Source: Paeniglutamicibacter psychrophenolicus (GTDB lineage Bacteria > Actinomycetota > Actinomycetes > Actinomycetales > Micrococcaceae). Taken from it: DNA of 64,000 nucleotides. Under the pieces are notes generated by a model. That model saw only the letters and a program-made list of their open reading frames with translations. It searched no databases and was not told the DNA's origin. Both the position numbers and the translations under genes were made by a program. The DNA is taken from assembly GCF_030812255.1 (NCBI RefSeq), contig NZ_JAUSSH010000002.1, forward strand, positions 372,001 through 436,000, written 5' to 3'. This document shows, one piece after another, positions 4,840 through 28,657 of this stretch (position 1 is its first letter; every line of letters begins with the position of its first letter).

Positions 4840-6036
4840 ATGCCCACCCCTCCAGAGCCCGAGCTCGACGTCGAGGCACCGCTGACACGGCACGTCCCGC
4901 TTCCCGATCCGCCACGGCACGCGCGGCGCTCGGTGCTCTCGGCCGTCGGACTTTTTGCCGCGATCGGCCTGGGCACCACCATCTTCGGCGGAAGCCTGTT
5001 GAATCCGCCGGCAACCACCGAGGACGGCGACTTTGCCGGCGAGACGATCGCGCTCACCATTCCGTTGGCCGAGGGGGGCGGCACCGATACCTGGGCACGC
5101 TTCATCGGTTCGGAGATGGTGCACTTCATCCCCGGCGTCCCCGGGTTCGCCCCGACGAACGAGTCCGGTGGCGAGGGGATCACCGGTTCGAACCACTTCG
5201 CGAGCTCCGCGCGTGACAACGGCACGGAGTTGCTGGTCAGCACCGCCAGCACCGTTGTTCCGTGGGTGCTCGGCCGCGATGCGGTGAAGTACTCCTTCGA
5301 CGAGCTCACGCCCATCCTGGTCAACGGCACCGGCGGGGTCATCTACGGCCGCACCGGCACCGGCGCCGGCGTCCAGGGCCTGTCCGACCTGGTGGATCGT
5401 GACAAGCCGCTGGTCTTCGGCGGCATCAGCGCCACCGGACTGGACCTGACCACGTTGGTGGCCTTCGACCTGCTGGAGGCCGAGACCACCGCCACGTTCG
5501 GGTTCGAGGGCCGCGGCCCGGTCAACCTGGCGCTCCAGCGCGGAGAGGTGGACATCGACTACACGACCACCAGCTCCTACGCTTCGGCAGTGAAGGGCAT
5601 CGTCGAGGAGGACAAGGCCACCGTGCTGATGTCCTTCGGACAGCTTGACGCCCAGGGCAACGTCGCCAGGGACCCGAACTTCCCCGATGTCCTCACCGTC
5701 GTGGAGGCCTACAAGGAAATCCATGGAACCGAACCGGCCGGGGAGAAGCTCGAGGCCTACAAGACGCTTCTGGGCCTGACCTACACCTACCAAAAGGGAC
5801 TGTGGGCCCCGGCGGGAACCCCCGACAAGGCCGTGGAACTGCTGCGCGAATCCGCCCACAAGATGTCCGAGGACGCCGCGTTCAACGACAAGGCCGACAC
5901 GATCCTGGGTGGCTATCCGATCAGTGCGGACGCACAGCTTCCGCAGCGTGTCGCCGAGGCCTACACGGTGACCGACAGCACCCGCCAATATGTGCAGCGC
6001 CTGCTGCACGACACCTACGACATCACTGTCGAGTAA
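4840..6036 (+). CDS. TTT transporter substrate-binding protein (TctC family)
   Basis: 398-residue extracytoplasmic binding receptor of the tripartite tricarboxylate transporter family (Bug/TctC). A charged twin-arginine-containing start is followed by a membrane segment (about residues 30-50), then the mature domain with the family's opening IALTIPLAEGGGTDTWAR, equivalent to the usual PFAAGG-x-D motif. Its own start is clear: AAGGAG, six bases, ATG. The same frame also runs unbroken from the upstream PrpF gene, so either the two are translated separately with reinitiation or a bifunctional PrpF-TctC polypeptide is made, which would put an isomerase on the wrong side of the membrane unless topology is unusual. 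It is longer than the second TctC here (328 residues). Confidence 0.85.
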   Translation: MPTPPEPELDVEAPLTRHVPLPDPPRHARRSVLSAVGLFAAIGLGTTIFGGSLLNPPATTEDGDFAGETIALTIPLAEGGGTDTWARFIGSEMVHFIPGVPGFAPTNESGGEGITGSNHFASSARDNGTELLVSTASTVVPWVLGRDAVKYSFDELTPILVNGTGGVIYGRTGTGAGVQGLSDLVDRDKPLVFGGISATGLDLTTLVAFDLLEAETTATFGFEGRGPVNLALQRGEVDIDYTTTSSYASAVKGIVEEDKATVLMSFGQLDAQGNVARDPNFPDVLTVVEAYKEIHGTEPAGEKLEAYKTLLGLTYTYQKGLWAPAGTPDKAVELLRESAHKMSEDAAFNDKADTILGGYPISADAQLPQRVAEAYTVTDSTRQYVQRLLHDTYDITVE

Positions 6037-18465: not shown

Positions 18466-18732
18466 GTCCCGGGAAGAACCGCGGCATTCTTGGCCAGCGT
18501 CAGGCCGGCCGGTATTGCCGTGCTGGGAAGGGCAACTGCAGAGGGGGGCGCCGATGCCGGATTCGGGGCCATCCCGGCCGCCTCGCACTGCCGAAGGACT
18601 AGCATGAGGGCAGTGGGCCATGGCGCTTGCGCGCCAGTGAAGGGTTCCACCGAAGCCGCGCGGGATGCGACGCGCGTGCCCCCGGCGGGTACGCGGGATC
18701 GTTCGAACGCGCAGGACCTGAAGGGAAGACAC

Positions 18733-19830
18733 ATGAAGACCAGAGCAGCAGTGGCGATTGCCCCCGAAACAGACCTCGAGATTCGCGAGATCGAGGTCGA
18801 CGACCCCCGTGCCGATGAACTCCGCGTGAAGATCGTCGCCTCCGGCGTGTGCCACACCGACGCGATCATCCGCGACCAGTGGTACCCGGTGCCGCTGCCG
18901 GTGGTCCTGGGCCACGAAGGAGCCGGGATCGTCGAGGCCATCGGCTCGGACGTGCAGGGATTCTCCGTGGGCGACAAGGTCGTCATGGGCCCGGCGTTTT
19001 GCGGCCAATGCGAGCAATGCCTCGCCGGGCACCCGATGTACTGCGTGAACTTCTACGACCGGAACTTCGGCGTCCAGCGCGCCGACGGCTCGACGGCTTT
19101 TTCGGACCCGCAGGGCGCGATCGGCTCGCACTTCTTCGGCCAGTCCTCCTTCGCGGAATACACCAACGTCGCGGCCCGTGGCGCGGTCAAGGTTCCCGAC
19201 GACGTGCCGCTGGAGATCCTCGGACCCCTGGGCTGCGGCATCATGACCGGTTCCGGGGCCGTCCTGAATGTCCTTGGGCCGAAGCCCGGATCCTCCATCG
19301 CGGTGTTCGGCACCGGGGCCGTGGGCATGGCCGGCATGCTTGCCGCGAAGGCCGCCGGCGCCACGACCATCATCATGGTGGACATCGTGCCCGAACGCCT
19401 CGCATTCGCCAAGGAGCTGGGAGCCACCCACACCGTGAACTCCAAGGAGGTGGACCCGGTCGAGGCGATCAAGGAGATCACCGGAGGCGGGGCCAACTAC
19501 GCGTTGGACACCACCGGCGTCCCCCCGGTGTTCTCGCAGATGACCCAGTCGCTGGCCACCCGCGGCCACGGCGCCCTCGTCGGTGCCGCGAAGCTGGGCA
19601 CCGAGGCACCGTTTGCCATCGGCAACCTGCTGCTGACCGGCATCAAGGTTTCCATGGTCATCGAGGGCGACGCGGTCCCCAAGGAATTCATTCCACGACT
19701 GATCAGCCTGCACGCCCAGGGAATGTTCCCCTTCGACAAGCTGATCAAGAAGTACAAGTTCGAGGACATCAACCAGGCCTTCGCCGATTCCGCGGACGGA
19801 TCCACACTCAAGCCGGTGGTGGTCTTTTAG
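18733..19830 (+). CDS. Zinc-dependent alcohol dehydrogenase (aryl/benzyl alcohol type)
   Basis: 365 residues of the medium-chain dehydrogenase family. Catalytic zinc ligands lie in ASGVCHTD and GHEGAG; the structural zinc loop is GQCEQCLAGHPMYC; the nucleotide site is FGTGAVGMAG followed by an acidic MVDIVPER, which favours NAD. The sequence resembles aryl-alcohol dehydrogenases (XylB-like) by the long SHFFGQSSFAEYT segment. The ATG follows AAGGGAAG. A 267-base gap separates it from the upstream oxidoreductase, so it may have its own promoter, although no boxes are clear. Confidence 0.88.
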   Translation: MKTRAAVAIAPETDLEIREIEVDDPRADELRVKIVASGVCHTDAIIRDQWYPVPLPVVLGHEGAGIVEAIGSDVQGFSVGDKVVMGPAFCGQCEQCLAGHPMYCVNFYDRNFGVQRADGSTAFSDPQGAIGSHFFGQSSFAEYTNVAARGAVKVPDDVPLEILGPLGCGIMTGSGAVLNVLGPKPGSSIAVFGTGAVGMAGMLAAKAAGATTIIMVDIVPERLAFAKELGATHTVNSKEVDPVEAIKEITGGGANYALDTTGVPPVFSQMTQSLATRGHGALVGAAKLGTEAPFAIGNLLLTGIKVSMVIEGDAVPKEFIPRLISLHAQGMFPFDKLIKKYKFEDINQAFADSADGSTLKPVVVF

Positions 19831-21136: not shown

Positions 21137-22369
21137 TTACTTGTTGCCGACCTTGGAGAACAGCGCGCGGACCGCGGCCTGCACGCCGGTGCCCAGCGTC
21201 GGCTCGATGACCGGGGCGAAGAACGGGGAGTGGTTGGCCGGCGGGTGGCCGGCGGCCAGGGTCGCCGCGTCGTTGCCGCCGAAGAACCAGAACACCGAGG
21301 GCACGCCGATCGCCGCGGCGAGGGCGCCGAAGTCCTCGCTGCCCATGACCGGCGAGCCCTGGCGAACGCGTTCCTCGCCGAACTCGGCACGGAACTGCTC
21401 GGCAAGCTTCTCGGTCTCGGTCGGGTCGTTGTACAGCGGCGGGAAGCTGGAGATGTCCTCGATCAGTGGCTCGGGTGCGCCGGAGGCCTGCGCCTCGGCG
21501 GCAATGATGCGCCGGATCGACGAGAGCACGATGTCCCTGACCTCGGGATCGAAGGTGCGCACGTTGATGGTGAACACCGCACGGTCGGGAATGACGTTTT
21601 CCTTCAGGCCCGCATGGAAGGACCCGATGGTCACCACCGCGGCGGACTGCGGGGCGACCTGGCGCGAAACTATCGTCTGCAGGCGCAGCACCATGGAGGC
21701 GCCCAAGACGATGGGGTCGATGGACCGCTCGGGCATCGAACCGTGGGAACCCTGGCCGTAGACCGTGACCTTGAAGGAATCCGCGGTGGTCATGGCCGCA
21801 CCGCCCATGATCTCCACGGTGCCGGTGAGCCCGTTCATCACGTGCTGGCCGAACATGATTTCCGGCTTGGGTGCCTTGTCCCACAGCCCGTCCTGAACCA
21901 TGGCCTTGGCGCCGGCGGCCGTTTCCTCACCCGGCTGGAGCACGAACACGATCGTTCCGGCCCAGGTGTCCTTGGCTCCGGCGTAGAGTTCGGCGGTCTT
22001 CAGCGCGGTGGCCATGTGGGTGTCGTGGCCGCAGGCGTGCATGGTCGGGACCTCGGTGCCGTCCTCCAAGAAGCCCGTGGCGGTGCTGGCGTAGTCCAGC
22101 CCGGTGTCTTCGAGCACCGGCAACCCGTCGGTGTCGGCGCGCAGGCCGATGACCGGTCCCGCGCCGTTGCGCAGCACGCCCACGACCCCGGTGCCGCCGC
22201 AGCGGAACACCTCGAGTCCCAGGTCTTCCAGTCGCTTGGCCAGGTAGTCGGCGGTCCGGTGTTCCTGCATGGACAGCTCGGGGTTGGCGTGCAGGTACTT
22301 GTAGGTCTCGTGCATTTCGGCGGTCGAGTCCTGGGTCAGTGCCAGGGCCTGCGGGATGGAGTTCGTCAT
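21137..22369 (-). CDS. M20-family amidohydrolase (hippurate hydrolase/aminoacylase type)
   Basis: 410 residues. The M20D metal-binding pattern is complete: ACGHDTHMA (His and Asp), the catalytic Glu pair in QPGEETAAGA, His in FGQHVM and the late His in PANHSPFFAP. The central dimerisation domain begins around GQGSHGSMPE. Enzymes of this group cut N-acyl amino acids, hippurate (N-benzoylglycine), indoleacetyl amino acids or similar amides in the cytoplasm. The ATG at 22369 has AAGGAA about eleven bases upstream. It is the third gene of an operon headed by a glycine riboswitch with two membrane proteins, so release of glycine from an imported conjugate is a specific and testable idea. Confidence 0.88.
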   Translation of the reverse strand: MTNSIPQALALTQDSTAEMHETYKYLHANPELSMQEHRTADYLAKRLEDLGLEVFRCGGTGVVGVLRNGAGPVIGLRADTDGLPVLEDTGLDYASTATGFLEDGTEVPTMHACGHDTHMATALKTAELYAGAKDTWAGTIVFVLQPGEETAAGAKAMVQDGLWDKAPKPEIMFGQHVMNGLTGTVEIMGGAAMTTADSFKVTVYGQGSHGSMPERSIDPIVLGASMVLRLQTIVSRQVAPQSAAVVTIGSFHAGLKENVIPDRAVFTINVRTFDPEVRDIVLSSIRRIIAAEAQASGAPEPLIEDISSFPPLYNDPTETEKLAEQFRAEFGEERVRQGSPVMGSEDFGALAAAIGVPSVFWFFGGNDAATLAAGHPPANHSPFFAPVIEPTLGTGVQAAVRALFSKVGNK

Positions 22370-22484
22370 CGGGCGTTGTTTCCTTGCTCTTGGGTGGGAC
22401 GGCGGCACCCGGGAGTGCCGCCGGTGGTAAATGTGGTGTGGATGCGCGGGGTCTCGGGTCGGTCCGGGCCGCCGAGTGCGTCGG

Positions 22485-23228
22485 TCAGTAGACCGGGCCC
22501 TCGGGGGTTGCATCCACCGGTACGTCCTCCGGCGTGCCCAGGGTCTTGCGGTCGCGCAGCACCCAGGCGAGAACCGCCGTGGCAATGACGGCGACAGCGG
22601 TGGAGAACAGGCCGAAGGGCTTGAAGAAGAAGGCCACGGAGACCACGATGACCGAGACGACCAAGGCGATCAGCGCCGAGCGCGGTGCCTTCTGGCTCAC
22701 GATCGCCTGGACGACCACGGCACCCATGACGGTGGGCAGGATGTAGAACTGGATGGTCTGGACGATGTCGGTGGGAATCACGCTGACCAGCCAGGTGCCC
22801 AACAGTCCGACGAAGATGAACAGCGAGGCCAGGTGGACGGTGGCGGCACCGCAGATCGCGGCGACCGAGGCCAGCTCGCCCTTGCGGGTGCCGGGCTTCA
22901 CGCCGATGGTGGCCTGGGCGATCATGGCCGCGGGCAGCAACTTGTTGGAGATGTTGCCGATCATGAATGCCTGGTACATGGACGAGGCGCCCAGGATCGG
23001 GAAGTAGGTCAGCGGCTCGACGATCCAGATGACGCCGAAGACCGCGGCCAGGGCGGCGAAGGCTGTGATGATGCCGGCGATTTCGATGTCGAGGCCGGCG
23101 AAGAAGACCAGGTACGCGGGGGCGGCCAGGGAGAAGAACAGGCCAATGATCATGGTGATCCGGCCCCAGCGCGAGGTGGTCTTGTCGAAGGCGCCGAGCG
23201 CCTGGTGGATTTCTGCTGCCTGGGTCAT
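22485..23228 (-). CDS. Integral membrane protein, probable transporter subunit
   Basis: 247 residues from the ATG at 23228 (AGGAG, six bases). About seven hydrophobic segments start near residue 28 (MIIGLFFSLAAPAYLVFF). A polar loop (IGVKPGTRKGELASVAAICGAATVH) in the middle and SNKLLPAAMIAQ are distinctive, but I cannot name the family. It sits between the DUF5058-like gene (29-base gap) and the amidohydrolase, and the similar size of the two membrane proteins suggests they form one transporter. Its place under a glycine riboswitch suggests a substrate that contains or yields glycine. Confidence 0.65.
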   Translation of the reverse strand: MTQAAEIHQALGAFDKTTSRWGRITMIIGLFFSLAAPAYLVFFAGLDIEIAGIITAFAALAAVFGVIWIVEPLTYFPILGASSMYQAFMIGNISNKLLPAAMIAQATIGVKPGTRKGELASVAAICGAATVHLASLFIFVGLLGTWLVSVIPTDIVQTIQFYILPTVMGAVVVQAIVSQKAPRSALIALVVSVIVVSVAFFFKPFGLFSTAVAVIATAVLAWVLRDRKTLGTPEDVPVDATPEGPVY

Positions 23229-23256
23229 GATGTGCTCCTGGGAATCTTGGCTGCGA

Positions 23257-24006
23257 TTAGAGGCGGGTGGCCGCGTAGGTGATGGCCAGGGAGAGGATGA
23301 TGGCAATGCCCAGGGCCCATTCCTTGATCCAGGGCCGGTTGACCTTCTTGGCGATGACCATCAGGGCGGCCATGATCGCGGCCGAGGAGGCGAAGGCGAC
23401 CACATGTATCCATGACTTGGGCAGTTCGCCAATGCCCAGCACCATGAAGGCGGCGACCATGGCGGCACCCGGGACCACGAGCATGATGGCCGGGTTGACC
23501 TTGCGCAGCGCGGAGTCGCCCTTCTTGAGCAGCGGGGTCAGGATGAGCGTGGCAATCATCCACATGGCCCCGCCCAGGCTCATGGCGGCCAGGGCCAGGC
23601 CAAAGACGGCCTGCGTGTAGGTGGGCCCGCCGAGTTCGGCACCGGCGGTGTTTGCTGCGATCGCCGCGGCGGCGGTCTCGTATGACACCGAGCCGATCAA
23701 TCCGATGCGCACCAGCACCGCGGGAGTGCCAAAGACCGTCAGGAGGGCGACGGCAACCATGACCACTGCCAGCGAGGGGCCAAGTGCTGAGATGGCGCCG
23801 GCGCGGAAGCTGGTCTTCAGTTCGGCCTGGCTCATCCCGACGTGGGGTGCGGCGATCCGTGCGGCCTTCATGTAGATGACGGACTGGACGATGATGACCA
23901 GGAAGACGCCGATGGCGCAGGCCCAGAGGACCGGTGAATTGGCCACGGCGAGGATGTCGGTGGAATTGCTGTCCGCAGCTGTGGGCAATGCGGCTGGGAA
24001 GTTCAT
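23257..24006 (-). CDS. DUF5058-type integral membrane protein
   Basis: 249 residues with about seven membrane segments, beginning after a short periplasmic-looking N-terminus (about residues 24-46, VLWACAIGVFLVIIVQSVIYM). A conserved-looking loop SQAELKTSFRAGAISALGPSLAV and a polar GSVSYETAAAAIAANTAGAELGG segment resemble DUF5058 proteins, whose function is not established. It is the first gene after the tandem glycine riboswitch (74 bases from aptamer end to ATG), so its level should follow cellular glycine. The neighbouring membrane protein is the likely partner. Confidence 0.65.
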   Translation of the reverse strand: MNFPAALPTAADSNSTDILAVANSPVLWACAIGVFLVIIVQSVIYMKAARIAAPHVGMSQAELKTSFRAGAISALGPSLAVVMVAVALLTVFGTPAVLVRIGLIGSVSYETAAAAIAANTAGAELGGPTYTQAVFGLALAAMSLGGAMWMIATLILTPLLKKGDSALRKVNPAIMLVVPGAAMVAAFMVLGIGELPKSWIHVVAFASSAAIMAALMVIAKKVNRPWIKEWALGIAIILSLAITYAATRL

Positions 24007-24079
24007 GGGGCTGGCCTACCGTTCATCGAAGGGTTCAAGGCGGAGGGTGCGGGTCGTGGTGTTCCCGGTTGCCACCGTG

Positions 24080-24262
24080 CCCGTTCTGTCCTGAACCTGA
24101 AAGATAAGCCGCTGCGCATGGCAGCGGCGTGCTTCGTCGGTGAGCCACCTATCCCGGCGGCTGCTCTCCAGAATTTCCTCACGCGGCTGTTCCTGGTACC
24201 TGAGAGATTGCGGGTGCTTGCCCCTTCGGTGCCCGAGTGGTGTCCGGGACTCTCCAGCCACG
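24080..24262 (-). ncRNA. Tandem glycine riboswitch
   Basis: On the minus strand, two aptamers follow one another. Aptamer 1: GGAGAG near 24256, CACCGAAGGGG (24231-24221), CTCTCAGGTACC (24206-24195) and GGAACAG. Aptamer 2: CTGGAGAG (about 24171-24164), CACCGACGAAG (24142-24132), CTTTCAGG (24103-24096) and GGACAGAACGG (to about 24081). These are the conserved blocks of the two-domain glycine (gcvT-motif) riboswitch. The linker between them is short, as is usual for cooperative tandems. The expression platform would be 24007-24079, before the DUF5058-like gene. Such elements mostly turn genes on when glycine is high; the direction cannot be read here. Confidence 0.88.
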
Positions 24263-24614
24263 TGTGATCGGAAGACTATTTGGTTGTGTGCGGAAGCTTG
24301 TCCGCGTGCGATCAAGAATACTTGACGCGGGTCACAGTGGCTCCTTTGTTTCTCCCGACCGAACGGTCGTGAATCGATATTTTTGCGTCTGGCCATCGAT
24401 GGCCTAAGGGGCCGAGAATGTGGCCAGGCCGGAAGATGCCTCGCGCATCGAATGGATTTCGGGTGGACAAGCATTCCCTCGAGATGAGCCGGTGGTTAGC
24501 CTTGAAAAAATGCATGGCGGCCTCGCCTGTCCACTTGTTATCGATCACCGGATGCGCACACCGGGGCCGGCTGCCCATCGAAGCGCCACACCCCGATTCC
24601 CGGCGGTTTCAAAT
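24263..24614. other. Gene-free stretch upstream of the riboswitch
   Basis: No recognisable gene. The minus-strand promoter of the riboswitch operon must lie here; AT-richer blocks around 24290-24350 are plausible, but no box pair is convincing. Confidence 0.4.
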
Positions 24615-25276: not shown

Positions 25277-26053
25277 ATGGTTGTTTCTCTCCCTCAGGTA
25301 CCGGTCTCGATGGTCGATCGCATTGGTGTCATCCTCGAGACGTTTAATGTTGATGACCCGGTGTTGACGGGCTCGGAAATTGCGCGTCGTACGGGCCTGC
25401 CCAAGGCGACTGTCGCGCGAATACTCGTGGACCTTGATCGGCACGATTTCGTTGCCCACACCGAGTCCGGATACCAGATTGGCATGAAGTGTTTTGAATT
25501 GGGGGAACGGGCACAGCAGCCCAAGAACCTGCGCCGACTGGCTTTGGCCACCATGTCTGATCTTCGGCAAGCAACTGGTCTGACAGTGCAACTTGGCGTG
25601 CTTGATGGCTTGGATGTCGTATATATCGAGATCCTCCGCGGAAAGCACCGAGAGCTTCGTATTCCCTCACGAATCGGCGGGAGGGTGCCCAGTTATGCCA
25701 CTGCTGGAGGCAAGGCGTTATTGGCCCACTCGGCCGTGGAAGTCCAGGAACTGGTCCTCAGTAGCGTCCTCACAAAAATCGGGCCTCGGACCATCGTCGA
25801 TCCAAAAGAATTGGCCGCCCAATTGGAACGTACACGCCGGGAGGGTATTGCCTACGAGGTGGAAGAGTCCCATGTCGGTTTGTCGTGTGCCGCGAGCCCG
25901 ATCCTTCGAAGCGATGGAACGGCTCTCGCGGCAATTTCAATAACCGCACCAGTAGGTAGCGTAGATATGCGCATTGTCGGGCCAGCCGTTCATGCCGCCA
26001 CGCTCGGCTTGAACCGCCAGGTGCGGGCTACGCCCTACTGGGCAAGTCTCTAG
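25277..26053 (+). CDS. IclR-family regulator of the alcohol/aldehyde dehydrogenase block
   Basis: 258 residues. Winged helix: VDRIGVILETFNVDDPVLTGSEIARRTGLPKATVARILVDL; the effector domain shows the IclR pattern through RIGGRVPSYATAGGKALLA and the ESHVGLSCAASPIL block. The ATG at 25277 has no good ribosome binding site; an internal ATG at 25310 is a possible alternative. It precedes the genes for a zinc dehydrogenase, MHS transporter and aldehyde dehydrogenase in the same direction, and a terminator plus dyad separate it from them, so it most likely controls their promoter. GC content is lower than in the surrounding genes. Confidence 0.85.
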   Translation: MVVSLPQVPVSMVDRIGVILETFNVDDPVLTGSEIARRTGLPKATVARILVDLDRHDFVAHTESGYQIGMKCFELGERAQQPKNLRRLALATMSDLRQATGLTVQLGVLDGLDVVYIEILRGKHRELRIPSRIGGRVPSYATAGGKALLAHSAVEVQELVLSSVLTKIGPRTIVDPKELAAQLERTRREGIAYEVEESHVGLSCAASPILRSDGTALAAISITAPVGSVDMRIVGPAVHAATLGLNRQVRATPYWASL

Positions 26054-26060
26054 CGTAGAA

Positions 26061-26086
26061 CGTCCCGCTGAGTGGGACGATTTTTT
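26061..26086 (+). terminator. Rho-independent terminator after the IclR gene
   Basis: CGTCCC (26061-26066) pairs with GGGACG (26074-26079), followed by a run of six T (26081-26086). It begins 8 bases after the IclR stop. Confidence 0.8.
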
Positions 26087-26121
26087 GACTTCAACGACAC
26101 GTGATCACAGGCTATTTCCTA

Positions 26122-26148
26122 GTCGCCGTGACAAACGTCACGAGCGAC
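26122..26148. promoter_or_regulatory. Two-step dyad upstream of the dehydrogenase gene, probable IclR operator
   Basis: Outer arms GTCGC (26122-26126) and GCGAC (26144-26148), inner arms CGTGAC (26127-26132) and GTCACG (26137-26142), centre AAAC. It lies 23 bases before the GTG start. Position and symmetry suit a repressor site for the IclR protein upstream. Confidence 0.6.
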
Positions 26149-26171
26149 AAAATCGTTACGAGGAGTCGTTT

Positions 26172-27269
26172 GTGAAAGCCGCAGTCATGACAGAGCCCAA
26201 TGTGCCCCTGAGGGTGACCGAGTTGGTCATTAGCGCGCCGGGCCCTGGGGAAGTCCGGGTCCGGATAGAGGCAGCAGGCGTGTGCCACAGCGACCTTCAT
26301 TATATGAAGAACGATCTGGCCTGCAAGACGCCGATTGTCATGGGGCATGAAGGTGCTGGGATTGTCGAAGAACTTGGTGACGGGGTCCGAAGCGTGGCAG
26401 TGGGTGACAAGGTAATCATGACGTGGCGACCTCGATGCGGATCCTGCGAATACTGCTCTTCTGGTCGTCCGGCGCTTTGCACTCTGGGCAAGATCCACGC
26501 CGTCACTAATGGCTTGCTGCGCGGCGGTTCTCGCTTGGATCATGATGGCACGGCTGTCCATCACCTCATGGGTGTTTCCTGCTTTGCGCAAGAGTGCGTT
26601 GTCTCCGAAGAATCCCTCATCAAGGTTCCTAAGGAAGTTCCTTCAGCCATTGCGGCAATCGTAGGATGCGCCGTCGTAACTGGCATGGGTACGGTGCTCA
26701 ACGGTATGCCGCATGCTGCCGGTGAATCCGTGCTTATTGTTGGTGCCGGCGGAGTCGGACTTTCGGCAGTCATTGGGGCAGCCGCAGTCGGCGCCTACCC
26801 CATCATCGTTGCCGATATCGACGACCAGAAACTTGATAAAGCGCGGGAGCTAGGTGCCACCCACACGATCAACAGCAAACTCGTGGACTTAGTTACTCAA
26901 GTTCTCGAGATCACTGAAACGGGAGTTCACTGGGCCATCGAAGCGATCGGGCGTGAAGAAACCATTACTGCGGCCGTTACCGCACTGCGTCCACGAGGCA
27001 CCGCCTTCGTAATTGGACTGGGCAACCCGAATACCGACATCCGTTTCCCCCTGAATCAAGCGGTCCAACAGGAAAAGACCATCCGAGGAAGCTTGTACGG
27101 TTCCTCAAATCTCTCGGTTCAGATTCCACAAATCCTGCGGATGTACCTGGCCGGAAAACTGCCTCTGGACGCGATGCTGGGCAACAGCTTCGCGCTCGAT
27201 GAGATCAACGAAGCTTTCGACGACTTGTCTGGCGGCGGCGCAGGCCGAGCCGTCATCCTCATGACTTAG
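26172..27269 (+). CDS. Zinc-dependent alcohol dehydrogenase
   Basis: 365 residues, GTG start with GAGGAG six bases upstream. Catalytic zinc site: AAGVCHSDLHY and MGHEGAG; structural zinc cysteines in RCGSCEYCSSGRPALC; nucleotide fold VGAGGVGLSAVIGA followed by acidic VADIDDQ, so NAD is likely. Sequence type is the class III/aryl-alcohol branch. It opens a three-gene unit with a transporter and an aldehyde dehydrogenase: uptake, oxidation to aldehyde, oxidation to acid. The substrate is unknown. Codons are less GC-biased than elsewhere in the window. Confidence 0.88.
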   Translation: MKAAVMTEPNVPLRVTELVISAPGPGEVRVRIEAAGVCHSDLHYMKNDLACKTPIVMGHEGAGIVEELGDGVRSVAVGDKVIMTWRPRCGSCEYCSSGRPALCTLGKIHAVTNGLLRGGSRLDHDGTAVHHLMGVSCFAQECVVSEESLIKVPKEVPSAIAAIVGCAVVTGMGTVLNGMPHAAGESVLIVGAGGVGLSAVIGAAAVGAYPIIVADIDDQKLDKARELGATHTINSKLVDLVTQVLEITETGVHWAIEAIGREETITAAVTALRPRGTAFVIGLGNPNTDIRFPLNQAVQQEKTIRGSLYGSSNLSVQIPQILRMYLAGKLPLDAMLGNSFALDEINEAFDDLSGGGAGRAVILMT

Positions 27270-27292
27270 CCAGCGCGACCTAATACGGCATA

Positions 27293-27324
27293 GGAATGCC
27301 ACAGCGGCGTAGCTATGGCATTCC
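27293..27324 (+). promoter_or_regulatory. Stem-loop between dehydrogenase and transporter genes
   Basis: Arms GGAATGCCA (27293-27301) and TGGCATTCC (27316-27324) with a 14-base loop and no T-run. It may adjust relative expression inside the operon or act as a leaky terminator. Confidence 0.45.
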
Positions 27325-27349
27325 CTGATCACTCACACAGGAGTTCTAA

Positions 27350-28657
27350 ATGTCAGCCCAAACATCTGCGGTGACCATCCAAGTCACCAATCAAGACCGA
27401 AAGCGCGCTCTCTGGGGCAGCGCGGTCGGAAGCACCATCGAATGGTACGACTATTTCCTCTACGGCACAATGTCGGGCCTCGTTTTCGGTCCGCTCTTCT
27501 TCCCCTCGGATAATCCAACCGCCAGCCAGATGCTCTCACTTGCATCGTTTGCTCTTGCCTTCTTCGTACGACCCATTGGCGGCATATTGTTTAGCCACAT
27601 CGGTGACCGAATCGGCCGGAAGAAAACGCTGCTAGTCACCCTGACTATGATGGGCGCCGCAACTGTTGCTATTGGCCTGATGCCTACTTATGCAGCCATT
27701 GGTGTAGGTGCCCCCATCCTCCTGACAATCTTGCGCCTCATCCAGGGTCTGGCGTTGGGCGGTGAATGGGGCGGGGGGCTGTTGCTGGCCGTCGAATATT
27801 CTCCGAAGGAACGCCGAGGATTCTTCGGCGCAGTTCCGCAAACTGGTGCGCTCCTGGGACTGGCCTTGGGAAACATTGCCACGCTGGGCGCCGACGCACT
27901 TTTCCCCAAGGAAGCGTTCCTCACCTACGGATGGAGAATTCCGTTCCTGCTTTCTGCGGTTCTGCTTTTGGTGGGTTTGTGGATCCGACATCGAGTCGAT
28001 GAAACCCCGTCCTTCCGTCAGATGAAACTTGCCGGCAACGAAAAGCGTATTCCGATCGTAGAAACGCTCAAGTACCACTGGCGATCGGTCCTCATCGCAA
28101 CCGGTGCCAAGATTGTCGAGACATCTACGTTTTTCATTTTCGCGACGTTCACCGTCTCATACGCCATTTCACTGGGTTACGAACGGACCCCCGTACTAGC
28201 GATAATTCTGATCTGCTCGATACTCGGCGTCTTCTCCATGGTTAAATTTGGCGCGCTGTCCGACAAGATTGGTCGCAAACCGGTATTCATTGGTGGGTCC
28301 ATCGCTGTTATGGCCTTCATCCTGCCTTACCTGTGGCTCCTGAACCAGAAATCGCTCATTCATTTGGCTATCGGTTGCTTCATTGGTTTCGCGATCATTT
28401 GGCCAAGTTATGGATCGCTCATCGGAACGCTCATTGCCGAGAGCTTCACTCCGGATATCCGCTACACGGGCGCTTCTTTGGGGTACCAGCTTGGTGCAGC
28501 GATCGCCGGTGGGCCCGCTCCGCTCATTGCAACGGCACTGCTGACCGCGTTTGCCGGCAGCTACGTCCCGGTCGGCCTGTTCGTTATGCTCTGTGGCGCC
28601 ATTTCGGTCGTGGCAGTTTCATTCGCCAAAGAAAAGCGAAATCAAGAAATCGACTAA
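27350..28657 (+). CDS. MHS-family (major facilitator) transporter
   Basis: 435 residues, twelve predicted membrane segments. Family marks: SAVGSTIEWYDYFLYG near the start, the loop 2-3 signature GDRIGRKKTL, its second-half counterpart DKIGRKPVF, and RLIQGLALGGEWGGG. These belong to the metabolite:H+ symporters, which import organic acids such as shikimate, benzoates, alpha-ketoglutarate or proline. AGGAG precedes the ATG. Its place between an alcohol and an aldehyde dehydrogenase gene suggests it brings in their substrate. Confidence 0.87.
   Translation: MSAQTSAVTIQVTNQDRKRALWGSAVGSTIEWYDYFLYGTMSGLVFGPLFFPSDNPTASQMLSLASFALAFFVRPIGGILFSHIGDRIGRKKTLLVTLTMMGAATVAIGLMPTYAAIGVGAPILLTILRLIQGLALGGEWGGGLLLAVEYSPKERRGFFGAVPQTGALLGLALGNIATLGADALFPKEAFLTYGWRIPFLLSAVLLLVGLWIRHRVDETPSFRQMKLAGNEKRIPIVETLKYHWRSVLIATGAKIVETSTFFIFATFTVSYAISLGYERTPVLAIILICSILGVFSMVKFGALSDKIGRKPVFIGGSIAVMAFILPYLWLLNQKSLIHLAIGCFIGFAIIWPSYGSLIGTLIAESFTPDIRYTGASLGYQLGAAIAGGPAPLIATALLTAFAGSYVPVGLFVMLCGAISVVAVSFAKEKRNQEID

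Follow-up and report, generated by a model that had tools for sequence, protein, structure and literature searches.

A tandem glycine riboswitch precedes a three-gene operon on the minus strand of a 64,000-nucleotide (nt) stretch of the Paeniglutamicibacter psychrophenolicus genome (contig NZ_JAUSSH010000002.1, positions 372,001 to 436,000), referred to here as the window. The operon encodes a membrane protein of the DUF5058 family, a membrane partner of similar size and an M20D-type amidohydrolase. The reading that we favour, at about an even chance, is that the operon is a glycine-conjugate salvage module, which would take up and hydrolyse glycine conjugates or peptides and feed glycine cleavage. 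The parts of the leader and the genes, in window coordinates, are as follows.

24177-24267, minus strand: glycine riboswitch aptamer 1 (RF00504, 66.6 bits, cut-off 32, E 1.2e-11 for the whole window)
24076-24181, minus strand: glycine riboswitch aptamer 2 (RF00504, 42.8 bits, E 3.8e-7; 45.4 bits at 24084-24173 with our model R1)
24007-24075, minus strand: spacer of 69 nt from aptamer 2 to the DUF5058 start codon, the presumed expression platform, without an intrinsic terminator
23257-24006, minus strand: DUF5058 membrane protein P0001, 249 amino acids (aa; PF16481, E 9.5e-62)
22485-23228, minus strand: partner membrane protein P0002, 247 aa, family unassigned; a relative sits behind DUF5058 at 154 of the 155 distinct loci
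21137-22369, minus strand: M20D amidohydrolase P0003, 410 aa (TIGR01891, E 5.1e-80; PF01546)

An earlier note on this DNA had placed the system at 21137-24262; its start is exact, but its end falls 5 nt short of the first base of aptamer 1. The two-aptamer riboswitch that it described was borne out when the region was searched with Rfam, both aptamers exceeding the 32-bit gathering score of RF00504. The window-wide Rfam scan gave aptamer 1 only, with one overlapping match of the same clan omitted, and aptamer 2 came from the genome-level scan (position G000:C2:396076-396181); 5 nt are common to both matches. Aptamer 2 was also scored alone with model R1, although the alignment behind that model contains the window's own aptamer 2. 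When the window was set beside nine relatives, 98.8% of the cells in 50 named pairs of the helices were standard pairs. Across these 10 leaders, 16 double-changed cells fell at 5 pairs, against shuffled means of 5.5 cells and 3.3 pairs. Five double-changed pairs were reached by 19 of 500 shuffles, and further pair types did not rise above the shuffles; the covariation count rests on related sequences and is therefore not a probability. Judged by these sequence comparisons, the riboswitch is real and under selection.

Within ten leaders of the window's clade, aptamer 1 is more conserved than aptamer 2 (92% versus 85%). Over five divergent leaders (the window and loci L078, L235, L241 and L124 of the collection described below), the values are 63% for aptamer 1, 58% for aptamer 2 and 29% for the spacer, which is the least conserved part of the leader. 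A scan of the spacer gave no intrinsic terminator, the sole terminator-like match on the leader's minus strand being the aptamer 2 hairpin, and 24007-24085 folds no better than shuffled sequence (z 0.17). Control may act on translation or through Rho. The 4.57 Mb assembly yielded two tandem glycine riboswitches, with 150 of 440 first-look candidates scored. The second stands immediately ahead of a gene with 69% identity to Arthrobacter subterraneus GcvP, and this gcvP leader, on the same scan, is likewise without an intrinsic terminator. Riboswitches of the glycine cleavage (gcv) genes are known as ON switches. Excerpts of PMC6944388 describe aptamer 1 as the more conserved before glycine-cleavage genes and aptamer 2 before transporters. 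Because aptamer 1 is the better conserved here, which is the glycine-cleavage pattern of that study, we lean, and no further than that, towards ON control by glycine as the predicted sign.

The composition of the operon is as the earlier note had read it, with a DUF5058-type protein, a second membrane protein of similar size and an M20D enzyme all on one strand. P0001 matches PF16481 along the entire model (208.9 bits, cut-off 28.2, positions 1-222 of 222), and its closest named relatives belong to Arthrobacter sp. AQ5-05 and C2 and to Paeniglutamicibacter species. For P0002, neither Pfam nor NCBIfam gave a match at E 0.001, and PADLOC gave none. P0003 scores 269.4 bits with TIGR01891, for which the curated cut-off is 153.75, and its best match among solved structures is the N-alpha-acyl-glutamine aminoacylase 6slf (E 4e-92, residues 12-401), with the active-site motifs in common; next come 4ewt (Peptidase M20), yxeP and a plant indole-3-acetic acid (IAA)-amino acid hydrolase. 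Residues C113, H115, E148, E149, H176 and H380, which we take to be the metal-binding or catalytic residues of the M20D family, are invariant in the relatives of P0003 (128-129 rows covering them). An acylglycine is a plausible substrate for the enzyme.

On a rough hydrophobicity scale, DUF5058 has six hydrophobic segments, and P0002 has six listed segments of which three overlap, giving about four. AlphaFold gave poor models of both DUF5058 (67 sequences, mean predicted local distance difference test score, pLDDT, of 68.8 and predicted template modelling score, pTM, of 0.50) and P0002 (60 sequences, mean pLDDT 65.2, pTM 0.42); these low-confidence models have about seven long helices in DUF5058 and eight in P0002. 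No solved structure matched the profile of either protein at E 1. Since the partner follows DUF5058 so consistently, the two look like an obligate pair and may be treated as a unit, which would be a two-subunit transporter. Profile-profile comparison gave a probability of 0.9% and no likeness, and so no sign that the two might be copies of one fold.

In the host's family, 63 of 197 genomes carry DUF5058; the counts are 44 of 396 for its order (42 over the cut-off) and 4 of 396 for its phylum (3 over the cut-off), the window's genome being included each time. We gathered 190 loci, of which 155 are distinct: 147 actinobacterial, six haloarchaeal, one from Paracoccus and one from Vibrio. From the order search, 20 of 36 matches outside the family were taken; the short loci L001-L063 stand outside the 190, and beyond the actinobacteria the search covered plasmids. 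L160 has two DUF5058 copies, one of which served as anchor, and L141 and L246 stand outside the DUF5058 tree. In L141 (4965-5678) the DUF5058 copy has an in-frame stop codon, and in L246 (6001-6501), on a Vibrio diabolicus plasmid, a DUF5058-like stretch lies among insertion sequences and is not annotated as a gene. No relatives of P0001 were found in viral contigs.

In all distinct loci save one, the partner gene comes after DUF5058 in the same orientation; in the exception the contig edge lies 100 bases downstream. An enzyme like P0003 lies downstream of the pair in 135 of the 155 loci and an M20D enzyme lies upstream of it in Paracoccus (L247), while another branch of TIGR01891 stands in the hydrolase's place in L124 (2715-4169), L139 (2617-4119), L141 (6471-8066) and L233 (7514-9103). 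With these, an M20D-family hydrolase is adjacent in 140 loci. The nearest solved relatives of the L124 hydrolase are HmrA and the Xaa-Arg dipeptidase. The hydrolase gene has thus been swapped in these four loci, so the activity would have been kept despite the change of gene, and a hydrolase of one chemistry appears mostly to accompany the membrane pair even when its gene is exchanged. Contig ends truncate two or three of the loci in which no M20D enzyme adjoins the pair.

R1 was run over all 190 loci, and a match above 20 bits directly upstream was counted as a riboswitch. It is present in 17 distinct loci that fall into four separated groups: 12 loci of the window's clade, L078 together with Nesterenkonia L235, Rhodococcus L214 and L241, and L124 from another family of the order. 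Two aptamers can be made out by eye in each of the leaders of L078, L235, L241 and L124, and the second aptamer of L078 scores 38 bits with R1. The riboswitch keeps its place and strand in lineages whose DUF5058 proteins are only 50-61% identical. Some leaders look decayed: L169 is degenerate (5735-5828, 28.7 bits) and L093 (4767-4858) is without most of aptamer 2, both being included in the 17, while L168 (5775-5867; 13.8 bits, not counted) and L172 keep the operon with leader remnants only, in an apparent decay of the riboswitch. In L248 (5689-5778, minus strand), a single sub-threshold glycine aptamer of 28.9 bits lies upstream of a DUF5058 gene on a plasmid, but on the other strand; it was not counted.

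The riboswitch-bearing DUF5058 proteins do not form one clade (approximately unbiased test, p 3e-73), and the DUF5058 tree, a quick tree with long branches, needs 5 changes of riboswitch label. In the leader tree, a branch with support 96/98 separates 12 of the 17 DUF5058 leaders from six other leaders, although the 12 were chosen by hand and the tree has long branches and an unsettled bootstrap. Five of those six precede gcvP, and the sixth, in L174, precedes a D-serine/D-alanine/glycine transporter. The idea that each riboswitch was copied from the local gcvP riboswitch is not supported, since the 12 DUF5058 leaders branch apart from these six. These data do not distinguish between an ancient riboswitch that was later lost in places, transfer of the operon and repeated gain, and we claim no independent gains.

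A link to glycine outside the leader comes from neighbouring genes. The genes gcvT, gcvH, gcvPA and gcvPB lie within about 13 kb of the three-gene set in five of the six haloarchaeal plasmid loci (Natronococcus occultus, Halobellus limi, Haloarcula JP-L23, Haloterrigena turkmenica and Haloterrigena KLK7). In the sixth, from Halalkalicoccus, a TRIC-family neighbour is the only mark of a glycine kind over 12 kb each way. Proteins of this family (PF03458, Gly_transporter) occur near four of the six haloarchaeal loci, the Halobellus one having been checked. No glycine riboswitch was found at the Rfam cut-off in the five haloarchaeal loci scanned, and in none of the six did R1 score above 16 bits.

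Among the 147 actinobacterial loci, gcv genes lie in the fetched stretch of seven (L124, L157, L158, L159, L213, L214 and L241). About 0.84 would be expected (Poisson P 3e-5 for seven loci, 0.002 for five lineages), on a rough estimate that takes two gcv clusters per 4 Mb genome and presumes independence. The count leaves out GcvT-superfamily proteins in the amidase loci L160 and L191, whose best NCBIfam models are dimethylsulfoniopropionate (DMSP) and trimethylamine N-oxide (TMAO) demethylases, below cut-off, and a serine hydroxymethyltransferase (SHMT) match 6.6 kb from L179. Proteins of the PF03458 family neighbour L087, L157, L178 and L217, with weaker tblastn matches near L184, L188 and L219. 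In Glutamicibacter nicotianae (L174, 10570-12491) a glycine riboswitch lies 4.6 kb from the DUF5058 start, ahead of a D-serine/D-alanine/glycine transporter gene (742 bits, cut-off 732), while the DUF5058 operon itself lacks one.

In the salvage module that we favour, DUF5058 and its partner would form one two-subunit transporter importing small molecules with amide-bound glycine, either N-acylglycines or dipeptides with a C-terminal glycine. Inside the cell, the M20D enzyme would cut the amide and free glycine, the tandem riboswitch would read intracellular glycine and set operon expression in step with gcvP, and the freed glycine would be burnt by the glycine cleavage system. We are more doubtful of a wider version, put forward tentatively, in which DUF5058 and its partner each supply one half of a hitherto undescribed family of transporters for amides that carry glycine, in actinobacteria, proteobacteria and haloarchaea. 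This would be a portable module, with an exchangeable M20D hydrolase feeding glycine cleavage, under riboswitch control in some bacteria and tied to gcv clusters in archaea.

A number of observations weigh against these readings. The earlier note had proposed a search of genomes for DUF5058 genes behind this RNA, and while 17 distinct loci answer to it, 138 of the 155 have no riboswitch. Among them are L168, L172, L173 and L174 (Glutamicibacter and allied Arthrobacter sp.), whose DUF5058 proteins are 81-88% identical and which keep the operon with no riboswitch above 14 bits in front of it. The commonest neighbour is an Lrp/AsnC-type regulator of about 333 aa with a double helix-turn-helix (88 of 155 loci, e.g. 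L159 3804-4802, minus strand), and an amidase (PF01425) adjoins 65; one or the other adjoins 108 of the 138 riboswitch-less loci. Glycine marks occur in none of the 64 actinobacterial amidase loci as against 26 of the 83 without an amidase (L174 and the PF03458 neighbour of L178 are not among the 26), a contrast that itself is not significant on independent pairs within the trees. About a dozen loci (13 or so) have the pair and no adjacent M20D enzyme although the contig continues. No residue of P0003 separates 29 glycine-linked from 55 amidase-linked hydrolases at the 80% level. Foldseek searches with the poor models of the membrane pair returned nothing under E 0.001 (best E 2.5 and 0.18, at chance level), and because the models gave no fold match, the transporter role rests on hydrophobicity, strict pairing and the companion hydrolase.

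The role in glycine-conjugate transport proposed in that note therefore stands in part: the link to glycine is backed by the gcv neighbours and by the riboswitch before gcvP in the same genome, but the switch is missing from most loci. Its further suggestion of a ligand class, taken for DUF5058 as a whole, is not supported, since an amidase adjoins 65 of the riboswitch-less loci, and the 64 of these that are actinobacterial have none of the glycine marks counted. With 108 of the loci without a riboswitch adjoining an Lrp-type regulator or an amidase, the class fits a subset of the family only. From the sequence record as a whole, the likely role of the DUF5058 family is transport of N-acyl or peptidyl amides derived from several amino acids, and the window belongs to a subset linked to glycine.

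Of the rival readings the likeliest is a broad scavenger, in which the membrane pair and its hydrolase would act on a wide range of N-acyl amino acids or dipeptides, with glycine serving only as a gauge of amino-acid or one-carbon supply and not as the chief product. The Lrp- and amidase-linked loci, the acyl-glutamine enzyme as nearest solved structure of P0003 and the lack of a glycine-specific residue in the hydrolase would all suit it. The gcv genes beside the haloarchaeal and seven actinobacterial loci, however, point to glycine as a product in this subset, and we consider the broad scavenger rather unlikely for the window. It is also unlikely, in our estimate, that the module works as proposed but with the sign reversed, glycine shutting it OFF and uptake of conjugates being confined to times of glycine shortage. 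Glycine riboswitches on transporter genes are known as OFF switches. Excerpts of PMC6944388 and PMC3766115 list transporter genes among the targets, yet the better conservation of aptamer 1 follows the glycine-cleavage pattern, and the same kind of riboswitch stands before gcvP in this genome.

An exporter, in which the pair would pump out excess glycine or a glycine compound that the hydrolase trims, would make sense of glycine sensing as relief of glycine stress. A glycine-freeing hydrolase and co-location with glycine cleavage and with a glycine transporter family suit intake and use instead, and export is highly improbable. Least credible of all is a chance placement of the riboswitch beside an unrelated operon; its presence in only 17 of 155 loci would fit, but the same place and strand across such divergent DUF5058 lineages and the compensatory changes in the helices speak against it.

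Beside the operon in the window, genes for an IclR regulator, an alcohol dehydrogenase and a major facilitator superfamily (MFS) transporter lie in a row at 25277-28657 (plus strand), and a second alcohol dehydrogenase gene lies on the operon's other side at 18727-19830 (plus strand). Both dehydrogenases score best with the model for enzymes dependent on N,N-dimethyl-4-nitrosoaniline (NDMA), below its cut-off.

AbgT with AbgA/AbgB takes up and cleaves p-aminobenzoyl-glutamate. The salvage module would resemble that system in setting a membrane transporter beside M20D hydrolases that release an amino acid by cleaving an amide. It differs in that the membrane part here is two small proteins with PF16481 as sole Pfam match, and P0003 is nearer to the acyl-glutamine aminoacylase than to the aminobenzoyl-glutamate utilisation protein 3io1. 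From the former enzyme (6slf) it differs in that its operon stands behind a glycine riboswitch. The riboswitch itself is like known members of RF00504 in its tandem aptamers, its actinobacterial host and the copy before gcvP in the same genome, and differs from known regulons in preceding an operon of DUF5058, partner and M20D enzyme. In actinobacteria, 74% of glycine riboswitch targets are glycine cleavage genes and 22% other glycine metabolism, as excerpts of PMC6944388 report, and excerpts of PMC3766115 list glycine metabolism, glycine transporters and serine metabolism. No such operon is named in the portions consulted of the main texts of PMC6944388, PMC3766115, PMC2211319, PMC2258182 and PMC7266159, the supplementary tables lying outside the search. 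Among 5.39 million papers searched, none mentions DUF5058 or PF16481; nor did the literature search give any that joins a glycine riboswitch with hippurate. The UPF0126/PF03458 glycine transporter, found important for glycine use in 11 bacteria according to an excerpt of PMC12173739, lies beside several copies of the three-gene set, but is a separate family and stands outside the operon here.

If the salvage reading is right, two membrane protein families without an assigned function would become a testable transporter with a likely substrate class, and the glycine riboswitch regulon would gain a type of operon. Hippurate is released into soil by animals, and the operon would offer a bacterial route for using such glycine conjugates.

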